NCBI RefSeq assembly: GCF_030296935.1
Contig: NZ_AP028032.1
Location: 434,001 to 498,000, forward strand
Direction of reading: 5' to 3'
Length of the DNA stretch: 64,000 nt
Source of the DNA: Coprobacter fastidiosus
Lineage (GTDB): Bacteria > Bacteroidota > Bacteroidia > Bacteroidales > Coprobacteraceae
The position numbers and the translations under genes are program-made. This document shows, piece after piece, positions 45,573 through 49,611 of the stretch. Each line of letters opens with the position of its first letter. Position 1 is the stretch's first letter. A model generated the notes under the pieces. It worked only from the letters and a program-made list of their open reading frames with translations. It was not told the origin of the DNA and did no database searches.

Positions 45573-46218
45573 CAAAAAACGTTGGAATAATCAACTGAAA
45601 TCGGAATAATAGTATCTATTTATCTGATTATGAGTTTATTATGATAAAGTCTTGGAAATGTGAAAAATGGTAATTCTGCAAAGAATCATAAGGTAATGGA
45701 ATAGAACGGTTGTCTAATTATTGCCCAATAATGGAGTAAGATTTTTCTTTGTATCGTCACATTTTATAGTTCTGTAATATTTTTATGATAACGAATTTCG
45801 TAGTATGAAAATATTGGATTTTGTGAAGTTTGTTTAAGGTGTTGTTCTAAATGAACAAAAAATTGAGGGTTGAAACTCTAAAACATACTCCTAAGTCGTA
45901 ATAATTCACTCGTAGAGTGCTTATTGTTGCAACTTTTTACTAATTTTACAGTTGGGTATGGATTATTTTTTTCAATACATATGATGGGACAAAAGAAAAA
46001 GCGTTATGCTTATCTTGTACTTGAAAACGTAATAAATTTTCAATTAGACGCAAGGATAGTATATTGGCTCTCATGCATATAGCATGAGGTGCTATTGTTA
46101 CACTGCATCTATGTGATCTAATAATAAACATTCCTATAAATGGTATTATATGAATACGGATAAGAAGAGTAAATAATAAGCATTGATTGAGTTATATACA
46201 TCATTAAATACACTGAAT
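45573..46218. other. Long non-coding gap at the left of the second accessory segment
   Basis: About 650 AT-rich bases with no supported gene. There is a short perfect hairpin (CTCATGC with GCATGAG, 46070-46088). Short open stretches on either strand show no family similarity. It looks like decayed accessory DNA. Confidence 0.5.
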
Positions 46219-46332
46219 ATGAAAAAGTTTATATTATTTTGTGTATCAATGTTCATTGGTATCATATTATTTGTTCACAGTAATTCAGAGCATCTAACTT
46301 TCAAAGGTGTTATTGCAGAAAGATGGATATAG
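46219..46332 (+). pseudogene. Short secreted-protein remnant
   Basis: A 37-residue frame starts with a signal-peptide-like stretch (MKKFILFCVSMFIGIILF) and reaches HLTFKGV, then stops at RWI. The HLTFKG start after the signal sequence is like small secreted proteins I recall from Bacteroidales accessory regions, which are longer. So this is most likely a truncated remnant. An intact micropeptide cannot be excluded. Confidence 0.4.
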
Positions 46333-46435
46333 ACAATATTCTTGTTGCTGAAATATTATGATAAAATAAACTCCTATATCGTTCGTTCGGCGCTATGGAT
46401 GATTGTAATCATTGTTATAATTGAACAATATTGTA

Positions 46436-46669
46436 ATGATTGAAGAATTAGTTGATATAATAGCTATGGTAATTGCTTTAATATTGATTCTGTGGCTTTA
46501 CATTTTCCTTCCTATTAAAATGGCAAGGAAGAGGGGGCGTAGTGCGTTTGGTTGGGTTGTGCTCTTTGGGATTATTTCTCCACTCTGGGGAATAATTGTG
46601 TTACATGTTTTAGGTGATAGCAAACAGAAAATTCGAAAAGATATAATCGAAGAACTTCATCGGAATTAG
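46436..46669 (+). CDS. Small membrane protein next to the helicase
   Basis: 77 residues from ATG 46436 (a TTG at 46421 is also in frame). It has two membrane helices: about residues 5-30 (IIAMVIALILILWLYIFLPI) and 40-62 (GWVVLFGIISPLWGIIVLHVLG). A basic loop KMARKRGRSAF lies between and a charged tail IRKDIIEELHRN follows. It ends 15 bases before the preferred helicase start (GTG 46673 would be 3 bases away), so the two are likely one transcript. I do not recognise a family. Confidence 0.6.
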   Translation: MIEELVDIIAMVIALILILWLYIFLPIKMARKRGRSAFGWVVLFGIISPLWGIIVLHVLGDSKQKIRKDIIEELHRN

Positions 46670-46684
46670 TAAGTGAATTGGCAT

Positions 46685-49300
46685 ATGAATCTTTTACTTG
46701 CCATAATTGTGAGTGCTGTTGTTATTTCTGTTGTAATTATAGCAACGATCAGAAAACGACTTAAAGTTAAGTCCAACGAGTTATTAGAGCAGATAAAAGG
46801 ATTAATTTCATATAGCGATAGATCTAATTATGAGCAAGCAAAAGAGAGATTATCAGCATTCAATAAAGAAACATTTATTGATATTCCCACCGACCTGAAC
46901 AACACTTTTTGTGGTAAAATAATCACTGCAACGCAGGAAAAAGATTTTATCAATCATTACAAACCACATTTTCAAGAAGCATATTCACTCGTTAAGAAAC
47001 TTGAAGCTTTCAATATCACTCTATCTGAAACCATTTCCAAATTCATCAATGATTTTGGAGTCATCAATAAACTTGTAAAACAGCATAATGAGGGCGTTAT
47101 TACATTTTTGCTTGACACTCATAAAGATTTTTTCGACCATTGTCTAAAATATCCATTAGACCAGCAACAAAGACGTTCAATCGTTTCAGAGGAAGATAAT
47201 TGCTTGGTCGTTAGTAGTGCAGGTAGCGGGAAGACCTCTTCTATTATTGGAAAAGTCAAGTATCTAACAGATGTAAAAGGTATTGCACCTCATAGAATCT
47301 TATTAATTAGTTACACGAACAAAGCAGCAGCCGAACTTACGGAAAGAATGGCTACTGATGGTTTGAAAGGTTATACATTTCATAAATTAGCCATTGATAT
47401 TATCGGAAGAGCAACAGGTATAAAACCCTCTATTTGCGACAATACTGATGCCTTATTCATAGATATTTATCACACTTTATTAGGAAATAAGGCTTTTAAG
47501 AATAGTGTAGTAGAATATTTTATTGATTACCAAACTAATGAGACGGATTGGGAAAAGCGCAAAAACGAAAGACAAGAGCAACTATCAGAACAAAAAAATG
47601 TACAGCTAAAAGCGATGTTTCCCGATATGGATGGTAGAGCCATATATGTGAGAAGTGAACAGGAGCAAAAGATATGCTTTGTTTTATCATCACTTGGAGT
47701 AAAATTTAGATATGAAGAACCATACGAACATCAATTAGCAGATGAAATGCACTCTCAATATCGTCCCGATTTTTCTATATACTTCGAGCAGAAGGGAGTA
47801 ACCAAACGGATTTATTTGGAACATTTTGGAGTTGATGAACATAGTCTTGTCCCTGCTTGGTTTGCAAAAGACAAGAACATAACATACGAAGAAGCCAATC
47901 AAAAATATGATGATGGTATAACTTGGAAGAAGGCTGCTCATGAGAAATTTGGCACTCAGCTTTTAGTAACATCAAGTGCTGATTTCCATTATTCTGATAT
48001 AAGGAATAAACTCAAAAAAATATTAGAGGATGTGGGTGTACCAATTCAAGAGAAAACAAATGAAGAATTGTATGGTTTGATTTTGCCCAAAGGTAGTAAG
48101 CAAGAAAAGGCGTTTATACGGCTTGTAGCTACTTTTGTAACATTGGTAAAATCAAGTTGTAAATCTGTTAAAGAAGTTCTGAAGCAAGCAAAGAATGCAG
48201 ATGATGAACGAAGTGTTTTTATTATCAAAAATATATTTCAACCTGTATATGAACGTTATATAAGTGCATTAAGCGATAGTAACCAAATTGATTTTACCGA
48301 TGCGATTCTTCAAGCTACAGAAATATGTCGTGCTTCACACCCTGTTGAGTATGATTATATCATTGTGGACGAGTTTCAAGATATATCGGTTGACCGTTAC
48401 AATTTCTTAAAAGTATTGCGAGAGGGAAATCCGCCTGCAAAGTTGTATTGTGTGGGCGATGACTGGCAGTCCATATATCGTTTTTCGGGAAGTGATATGG
48501 CTCTTTTTAATCAATTTCCTGAATATTTTGGAGCAACAGAAATAAATAAAATTGAAACTACATATAGATTTGGAGAGCCTTTGGTTTCGTTGTCCTCTTA
48601 CTTTATACAGCGCAATAAAGCCCAAATACAAAAGGATATACACTCATTCGATTCTGAAATGAAAACAGAATTGGAGTTCTATTCTTATGATAGGCGAGAT
48701 TATTGCAATATGATAGGGCAACTTGTTGCTTCTATTCCATCAGATAAATCAATATTTTTATTGGGACGTTATTCCTTTGACGATTATTACCTCTCTTTTA
48801 TGTATCAATCCATTAAAGAGGGCAATAGGTTCTTTTATGTGATAGGAGGACGAAAAATCGAGTTTTTGACCATACATAAATCAAAAGGTCTTGAAGCGGA
48901 TTATGTAATACTCTTACAATGTAACAAAGATACATATGGTTTCCCTTCTCTTGTGAGTGATGACCCTGTGCTTAACTACGTACTCACTAAAAGCGACCAA
49001 TTCCCATATGGAGAAGAGCGTAGATTGTTTTATGTAGCAATAACAAGGGCAAAGATGAAAACTCTTGTATTATATGACAAACGTTTTCCCTCTGTATTTG
49101 TGGATGAATTCTTGCATCCTGAAAAACTTTCAGAAGAAAGTTATGTAAAACATCCCAATGCCAATAAGAGATGGACAAGAAGTGCAGACCAATTTCTATT
49201 AAAACTACATAGTGAGGGCAAGAGTGTGAAGTATATTGCAGCTAAAATGGGCAGAAGCCAAACTTCAATCGTAATGCGATTGAACAAGCTAAACCAATAG
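46685..49300 (+). CDS. Membrane-anchored helicase IV-like SF1 helicase
   Basis: 871 residues from ATG 46685 (GTG 46673 possible). Residues 2-23 are a membrane helix (LLLAIIVSAVVISVVIIA), then a basic coil. Helicase motifs follow: Walker A SSAGSGKTS near 180, motif II VDEFQD near 562, GDDWQSIYRFSGSDM near 590, TTYRF, FLTIHKSKGLEADYV near 725 and RRLFYVAITRAK. These match E. coli HelD closely. Between motifs lies YRPDFSIYFE...YLEHFG (358-378), resembling a PD-(D/E)xK nuclease insertion. The last 40 residues form a helix-turn-helix (VKYIAAKMGRSQTSIVMRLN). Codon and CCGG use differ from the core. The biological role is unknown; DNA repair or defence are options. Confidence 0.85.
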   Translation: MNLLLAIIVSAVVISVVIIATIRKRLKVKSNELLEQIKGLISYSDRSNYEQAKERLSAFNKETFIDIPTDLNNTFCGKIITATQEKDFINHYKPHFQEAYSLVKKLEAFNITLSETISKFINDFGVINKLVKQHNEGVITFLLDTHKDFFDHCLKYPLDQQQRRSIVSEEDNCLVVSSAGSGKTSSIIGKVKYLTDVKGIAPHRILLISYTNKAAAELTERMATDGLKGYTFHKLAIDIIGRATGIKPSICDNTDALFIDIYHTLLGNKAFKNSVVEYFIDYQTNETDWEKRKNERQEQLSEQKNVQLKAMFPDMDGRAIYVRSEQEQKICFVLSSLGVKFRYEEPYEHQLADEMHSQYRPDFSIYFEQKGVTKRIYLEHFGVDEHSLVPAWFAKDKNITYEEANQKYDDGITWKKAAHEKFGTQLLVTSSADFHYSDIRNKLKKILEDVGVPIQEKTNEELYGLILPKGSKQEKAFIRLVATFVTLVKSSCKSVKEVLKQAKNADDERSVFIIKNIFQPVYERYISALSDSNQIDFTDAILQATEICRASHPVEYDYIIVDEFQDISVDRYNFLKVLREGNPPAKLYCVGDDWQSIYRFSGSDMALFNQFPEYFGATEINKIETTYRFGEPLVSLSSYFIQRNKAQIQKDIHSFDSEMKTELEFYSYDRRDYCNMIGQLVASIPSDKSIFLLGRYSFDDYYLSFMYQSIKEGNRFFYVIGGRKIEFLTIHKSKGLEADYVILLQCNKDTYGFPSLVSDDPVLNYVLTKSDQFPYGEERRLFYVAITRAKMKTLVLYDKRFPSVFVDEFLHPEKLSEESYVKHPNANKRWTRSADQFLLKLHSEGKSVKYIAAKMGRSQTSIVMRLNKLNQ

Positions 49301-49611
49301 GATATTTTATTTTTTCAATGATACAGTATATGTATCGGATTATTCTATAACCTTTGTGGTATTAAAAGGTTAACAATGAAGAATTCAGAAATATGAACAG
49401 TTGCTATATCATTCCCCAATTTTTAAGCAATCTAATCAACATATTTGTTCTAAATAAGTTATCTTTCTTGCAGAAATACAAAAAAAATATTCCTTGAAAA
49501 GCTAAAACGGGAATAAGTGTCATAATTTATATTTTCCCGAAATAATTCAAATATGGAGTTTTCGTTTTAGGTAAAATGCTGTATCTTCGTTTGCTATTTT
49601 ATAACTGTACG
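49301..49611. other. Gap after the helicase
   Basis: About 310 AT-rich bases. An 8-bp inverted repeat (49348-49355 with 49365-49372) without a T-run may be a weak terminator. TATCTTCG at 49582-49589 is a one-mismatch -7 box for the next gene. No gene seen. Confidence 0.45.

Follow-up and report, generated by a model that had tools for sequence, protein, structure and literature searches.

In AddAB and RecBCD, a UvrD-like motor is combined with a PD-(D/E)XK nuclease which constitutes a C-terminal domain. Gabija GajB and RTasHel, both represented in PADLOC, belong to defence systems and contain a helicase core of the UvrD type, the nuclease of Gabija being a separate protein, GajA. The SF1A core is also that of UvrD, Rep and PcrA and of Escherichia coli HelD, the N-terminal domain of which is soluble and which possesses neither a membrane helix nor a nuclease insertion. 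Here we describe a helicase gene from a window of 64,000 nucleotides of the Coprobacter fastidiosus genome (contig NZ_AP028032.1, positions 434,001 to 498,000) whose product combines such a core with an N-terminal membrane helix and an inserted segment of nuclease-type fold. To judge by the resources searched, in which it is undescribed, this protein represents a variant of the UvrD-type helicase-nucleases that is new as a family. An ORF check confirmed both the helicase reading frame and that of a small membrane protein directly upstream. The features of the locus, numbered from the first nucleotide of the window, are:

45580 to 49471, no strand assigned: whole inserted segment, about 3.9 kb, with the A-rich near-repeat AATACAAAAAA at both edges
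45979 to 46171, plus strand: eroded cargo-leader hairpin (model R1), its 3' arm largely decayed
46219 to 46332, plus strand: remnant of a truncated cargo gene for a 192-residue secreted protein; 37 residues, MKKFILF...SEHLTFKGV
46436 to 46669, plus strand: 77-residue membrane protein containing two hydrophobic stretches; it lies 15 bp ahead of the probable start of the helicase
46673 to 49300, plus strand: ORF of the SF1A helicase bearing the membrane anchor and the nuclease-fold insertion; 875 residues as listed, 871 from the ATG at 46685
46685 to 46753, plus strand: N-terminal transmembrane helix, residues about 5 to 27, helical in the model
47594 to 48088, plus strand: PD-(D/E)XK-like insertion (YRPDF...EHFG), residues 308 to 472 (165 residues)
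49178 to 49297, plus strand: C-terminal three-helix HTH-like segment, residues 836 to 875, conserved in the family
49301 to 49471, plus strand: right-end tail of the element, common to two related loci (L033 and L034) up to their own junctions

The inserted segment and the distribution of the helicase

Homology to a congener (G003) stops at position 45579 and resumes at 49471. In the congener the site is empty, the two flanking genes being adjacent at a distance of 177 bp. The helicase gene was found in four of the 60 genomes searched, the host included. The earlier note had named consistent core-genome placement in all relatives as an observation that would count against its reading; the sporadic occurrence and the empty site identify the gene as mobile rather than as part of the core genome. 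Across most of 80 loci the helicase is 72–92% identical, and these loci stem from Bacteroides, Alistipes, Coprobacter, Prevotella, Muribaculaceae and others, many of the taxon names having been given to metagenome bins. About twenty loci show it behind genes for an integrase, a DUF5906 protein, a Toprim protein or MobV. The gene order of the underlying integrative mobilizable element (IME) is integrase, DUF5906, Toprim, MobV, hairpin, cargo, helicase, and in the loci inspected no further gene separates the helicase from the conserved terminal stretch of about 200 bp. Complete related elements match MobV with 208 bits (cut-off 100) and Phage_integrase with an E-value of 3.3e-17. Since the 3.9-kb insertion of the window contains neither an integrase nor a MobV relaxase gene, this copy is a remnant, and we read the locus as what is left of the cargo end of a decayed MobV-type IME of Bacteroidales. 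No clear common repeat which could be assigned to an att site was recognised at the IME ends, and a tRNA-linked insertion was discarded as the window contains no tRNA. The dN/dS values of 0.05–0.12 against close homologues reveal strong purifying selection on the helicase, which, therefore, is no chance ORF.

A profile of the insertion matches only eight of 296 genomes across the phylum. Several of the relatives outside Bacteroidales have defence genes beside them or within a few kilobases: PglZ, BrxL and PglX of a BREX system at L226, AbiH at L222, Vsr at L225, a cytosine (C5) methylase at L228, and a type III restriction enzyme together with a PLD nuclease at L227. A copy on a Hymenobacter plasmid has genes for a restriction endonuclease and for an HNH nuclease nearby. 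The relative at L226 is located on the opposite strand inside the BREX locus, which also holds the gene of an 825-residue UvrD-like protein. The Bacteroidales copies constitute IME cargo at scattered chromosomal sites with no obvious defence islands, and the genes around the window's own copy resemble ordinary chromosomal ones. Of the placement in defence islands, for which the earlier note had proposed to check, there are signs in Bacteroidota relatives outside the order, but no obvious ones in the Bacteroidales copies. The defence neighbours of the relatives, seen at few loci and set against no control set, support a defence role. PADLOC contains no dedicated model for the helicase, and its matches to Gabija GajB and RTasHel are due to the common UvrD core.

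Given the genes for BREX, AbiH, restriction or methylation around Bacteroidota relatives outside the order, our best guess is that the helicase exerts a putative membrane-sited restriction of foreign DNA, an assignment we make tentatively and rate at somewhat less than an even chance. Its single N-terminal helix would tether the protein to the inner membrane on the cytoplasmic side, and foreign DNA, be it of a phage or of a rival mobile element, would be met at the membrane, translocated at the expense of ATP and then cut by the PD-(D/E)XK-type domain placed between the helicase motifs. In this way, the protein may possess the anti-phage activity that the earlier note had suggested. The main rival to this reading is that the helicase acts as a transfer or replication motor of the IME at the membrane, where it would aid the MobV relaxase, its nuclease fold processing intermediates. 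Relaxase-driven transfer requires a helicase, and the gene, which occupies the right end of the element, is accompanied in many loci by those for MobV, primase and Toprim proteins. However, elements with the same backbone bear other cargo, such as DarT or MUN-1, and no helicase, and the helicase gene itself is found among the cargo genes behind the cargo leader. In the window it persists under purifying selection although mob and integrase genes are missing, and, as described above, relatives outside Bacteroidales lie near defence genes. A role in transfer hence appears unlikely.

Domain architecture of the helicase

The membrane anchor ahead of the helicase core, which the earlier note had pointed out for the window's copy, proves to be a constant feature of the family. 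None of the 69 full-length Bacteroidales homologues lacks the N-terminal helix (69/69), the peak Kyte-Doolittle hydropathy of which amounts to a median of 3.2 versus 1.3 elsewhere.

The YRPDF...EHFG insertion is found in all relatives aligned and, according to the alignment, is missing in E. coli HelD. Folded alone, it yields a confident model (pLDDT 88.2) whose secondary structure elements follow the order alpha-beta-beta-beta-alpha-beta of a PD-(D/E)XK core. VIA-align ranks the catalytic domain of I-Bth0305I first (Z 8.7, 2.5 Å, 93 of 97 residues), followed, among other matches, by Bax1 (Z 7.6), Vsr (7.4), TnsA (7.3) and VRR_NUC (6.1); archaeal Hjc is also among the matches, and nearly all top matches adopt the PD-(D/E)XK fold. 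Foldseek alone returned nothing significant for the insertion (best E-value 0.09) and was less informative than VIA-align. The best lead at the sequence level, phage T7 endonuclease I, remains sub-threshold (Pfam Phage_endo_I, E 0.0092) and was rejected as nearest kin, the nearest structural neighbours belonging instead to the Vsr/I-Bth0305I branch. Judging from the model, the insertion has the PD-(D/E)XK-type nuclease fold for which the earlier note had proposed to check, and is closest to the lysine-less I-Bth0305I/Vsr branch.

Glu331, Asp366 (of the PDF motif) and His384 are invariant down to relatives with 31–36% identity, and Glu383 is retained in all aligned sequences except one (L089), where it is replaced by Asp. 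The canonical D...(D/E)xK motif is incomplete: Asp366 and Glu383 are present, the lysine is replaced (EHF). Since this classical active-site lysine is missing (EHF instead of E-x-K), cutting by the insertion is not assured. The Vsr-like/I-Bth0305I branch of the PD-(D/E)XK enzymes lacks the lysine and is active nevertheless; by analogy to it, DNA cleavage is predicted as likely. Alternatively, the insertion might be a catalytically dead DNA-binding module within a membrane-tethered repair or translocation helicase, as the replaced lysine and the weak Foldseek E-values could suggest. The conservation of Glu331, Asp366 and His384, and very nearly of Glu383, and the activity of the lysine-less branch which provides the nearest folds argue against a dead module, and we deem this explanation improbable.

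The helicase core contains all SF1A motifs in intact form, Walker A including Lys187. Pfam assigns UvrD-helicase (E 4.6e-39) and UvrD_C (E 7.5e-16) to it, and the top structural match of its model is E. coli Rep (1uaa, Z 24.9). On account of its domains and intact motifs, the protein is a UvrD/Rep SF1A member. Its reading frame probably starts with the ATG at 46685 (residue 5) rather than with the GTG at 46673, because almost every homologue begins there and because the 90% identical copy of Coprobacter secundus (L051) has a stop codon directly upstream of this position. The designation chosen in the earlier note is only that of the closest curated NCBIfam model, helicase IV (PRK11054), for which the score of 332.5 bits stays below the HelD equivalog cut-off of 543 bits. 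This top-ranking model is also what would favour a housekeeping helicase IV orthologue having drifted into a mobile context. Besides the score, the sporadic distribution (four of 60 genomes only), the empty site in the congener and the architecture of E. coli HelD, devoid of both anchor and insertion, disfavour such an origin, which we regard as very unlikely. In E. coli K-12, helD (L201) also adjoins genes of inner-membrane proteins, namely yccF and yccS, which are encoded on the opposite strand.

The C-terminus had been described as a helix-turn-helix. Three helices in the model and conservation throughout the family agree with this, but the Pfam match to HTH_38 (E 0.011) lies under its cut-off, so that the assignment is weakly supported.

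The upstream slot and the leader hairpin

The 77-residue protein encoded ahead of the helicase is strongly hydrophobic. Homologues of 77 residues are found at the same position in L034, L051 and L076 only, their length supporting the start codon assigned. In a set of 72 helicase loci, the immediate upstream neighbour encodes a 219-residue secreted protein in 21 cases, a 224-residue lipoprotein in 15, a 192-residue secreted protein in five, a 165-residue lipoprotein in four and the 77-residue membrane protein in a further four; in the remaining loci the slot holds an unrelated gene, is devoid of one, carries a gene on the opposite strand or is lost at a contig edge. Within the window, the start of the 37-residue remnant matches the 192-residue cluster (MKKLIVSF...SEHLTFKGIPIEG) and then breaks off. 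Both the slot counts and this stump of a 192-residue gene indicate that the upstream families are exchangeable. In addition, proteins of the 77-residue type occur without the helicase, and the 192-residue gene also sits behind the leader hairpin where there is no helicase. As the 77-residue gene precedes only four of 72 helicases and other families occupy the same slot, there is no fixed two-gene system, and the partnership suggested initially was not borne out as a conserved one: most of the 72 loci lack the small gene. A defence system made up of two dedicated genes, for the helicase/nuclease and a 77-residue membrane effector, is suggested by the immediate upstream position on the same strand in the window and at three further loci; it is largely refuted by these counts and by the helicase-free hairpin loci, and can virtually be dismissed. 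Rather, the small secreted, lipoprotein or membrane genes are best seen as exchangeable passengers on what is presumably a shared transcript with the helicase and not dedicated partners. Coprobacter secundus (G001, contigs C7 and C5) harbours two helicase copies, 88–90% identical to that of the window, one of them behind a 77-residue gene.

Apart from the helicase, a side discovery emerged which is the more unexpected lead and may matter more. A conserved non-coding stretch located upstream of the cargo in some 40 helicase loci folds as one long hairpin of about 190 nt (intact examples: L036:8527-8718 and L040:8485-8680). Among the strains with an intact hairpin are Bacteroides stercorirosoris DSM 26884 and B. 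oleiciplenus YIT 12058. The eroded copy of the window, which matches about 38 other helicase loci at the nucleotide level, scores 69.6 bits in cmsearch (E 2.9e-11) compared with 140–230 bits for intact copies. In the seed alignment (n = 23), ten pairs are changed on both sides and none of 500 shuffles reaches the covariation score. An alignment of 46 copies, which leans towards the model as these were found by the model itself, shows compensatory changes in 28 of 48 pairs, its score again being reached by 0/500 shuffles. A known RNA family was rejected as six intact-copy loci searched against Rfam gave no match at gathering score, sub-threshold matches being confined to the surroundings of the window copy and one intact copy; the open-access literature, likewise, yielded nothing on such a hairpin or such a helicase type. 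The hairpin is preceded by a promoter of the Bacteroides type: a -7 box (TAnnTTTG) is found upstream of 62 of 65 hairpin copies versus eight of 389 background stretches; the former count refers to any such box, which in most copies is placed 31–35 nt before the hairpin. The minus strand scores only about 30 bits compared with 230. Because strand-specific G-U pairs are retained, the minus strand is weak and the TAnnTTTG box is located upstream, a role as DNA only is less favoured.

Of 295 Bacteroidales genomes, 74 contain the hairpin, often in several copies each. The gene that follows it lies on the same strand in 43 of 47 cases and often starts about 40 nt further on. The cargo is unrelated, comprising DarT, MUN-1 beta-lactamase, a Lnu-like nucleotidyltransferase, MBOAT, Sel1/TPR proteins and lipoproteins; a helicase-specific RNA is hence ruled out. 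The genes right behind the hairpin at L168, L122 and L119 include those of a relative of lincosamide nucleotidyltransferases, a MUN-1 beta-lactamase and a DarT-domain protein. Of 140 hairpin pairs with at least 90% identity, which are not independent of each other, 117 show no more than random similarity in the DNA that comes next; the change of cargo falls at the 3' edge of the hairpin. Two near-identical elements, L045 and L046, differ by a clean insertion of 1298 bp between hairpin and next gene, present in one only, whose gene we take, from its sequence, to be ErmF-like. The host genome contains a second, far better preserved hairpin (L157; G000:C1:996842-997022, 143 bits) in front of the gene of a 664-residue Sel1/TPR protein. 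It is possible, if rather doubtful, that the hairpin forms a promoter-led cargo platform at whose 3' edge interchangeable genes are gained precisely, by analogy to the site of expression and insertion of an integron, with the helicase-nuclease among its passengers.

Significance and comparison with described systems

A helicase and a nuclease-type domain within one membrane-tethered chain would restrict incoming DNA at its point of entry, which is not obviously accomplished by the known soluble helicase-nuclease defences, and would do so as part of a family that is sporadic and mobile among gut Bacteroidales. The leader hairpin would unite cargo for defence, toxins and antibiotic resistance (DarT, Lnu-like, MUN-1, ErmF-like) at a single site of expression or insertion, and a common site of this kind would explain the swapping of passengers by these elements.

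With E. coli HelD and with UvrD, Rep and PcrA the helicase shares the SF1A core, all motifs and the domain order at about 30% core identity; the differences from HelD are those outlined at the outset. The same insertion, including PDF...YLEH, is present in plasmid-encoded UvrD-helicases of Acinetobacter (WP_329777040, 31.6% identity) and Hymenobacter (WP_270129553, 38.3%). In contrast to the window's protein, that of Acinetobacter has a HelD-like soluble N-terminus, and both contain a cysteine-rich C-terminal segment in place of the HTH. The match to Gabija GajB spans the core only, and neither a GajA nor a reverse transcriptase gene was found beside the helicase, which is flanked by the genes of the 77-residue membrane protein upstream and of a 561-residue protein downstream. 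Unlike in AddAB and RecBCD, the nuclease fold is placed inside the core and accompanied by a membrane anchor. I-Bth0305I and Vsr, representing the EDxHD branch of PD-(D/E)XK and the best fold matches of the insertion (Z 8.7 and 7.4), are stand-alone nucleases or homing enzymes with 14–16% sequence identity to it. Finally, the elements resemble Bacteroides MobV IMEs such as Tn5520, a Bacteroides element listed with MobV (PMC5704250), in being integrated and in encoding a recombinase and a MobV relaxase, but differ from them by their Toprim and primase-like DUF5906 genes, their variable cargo and the leader hairpin.
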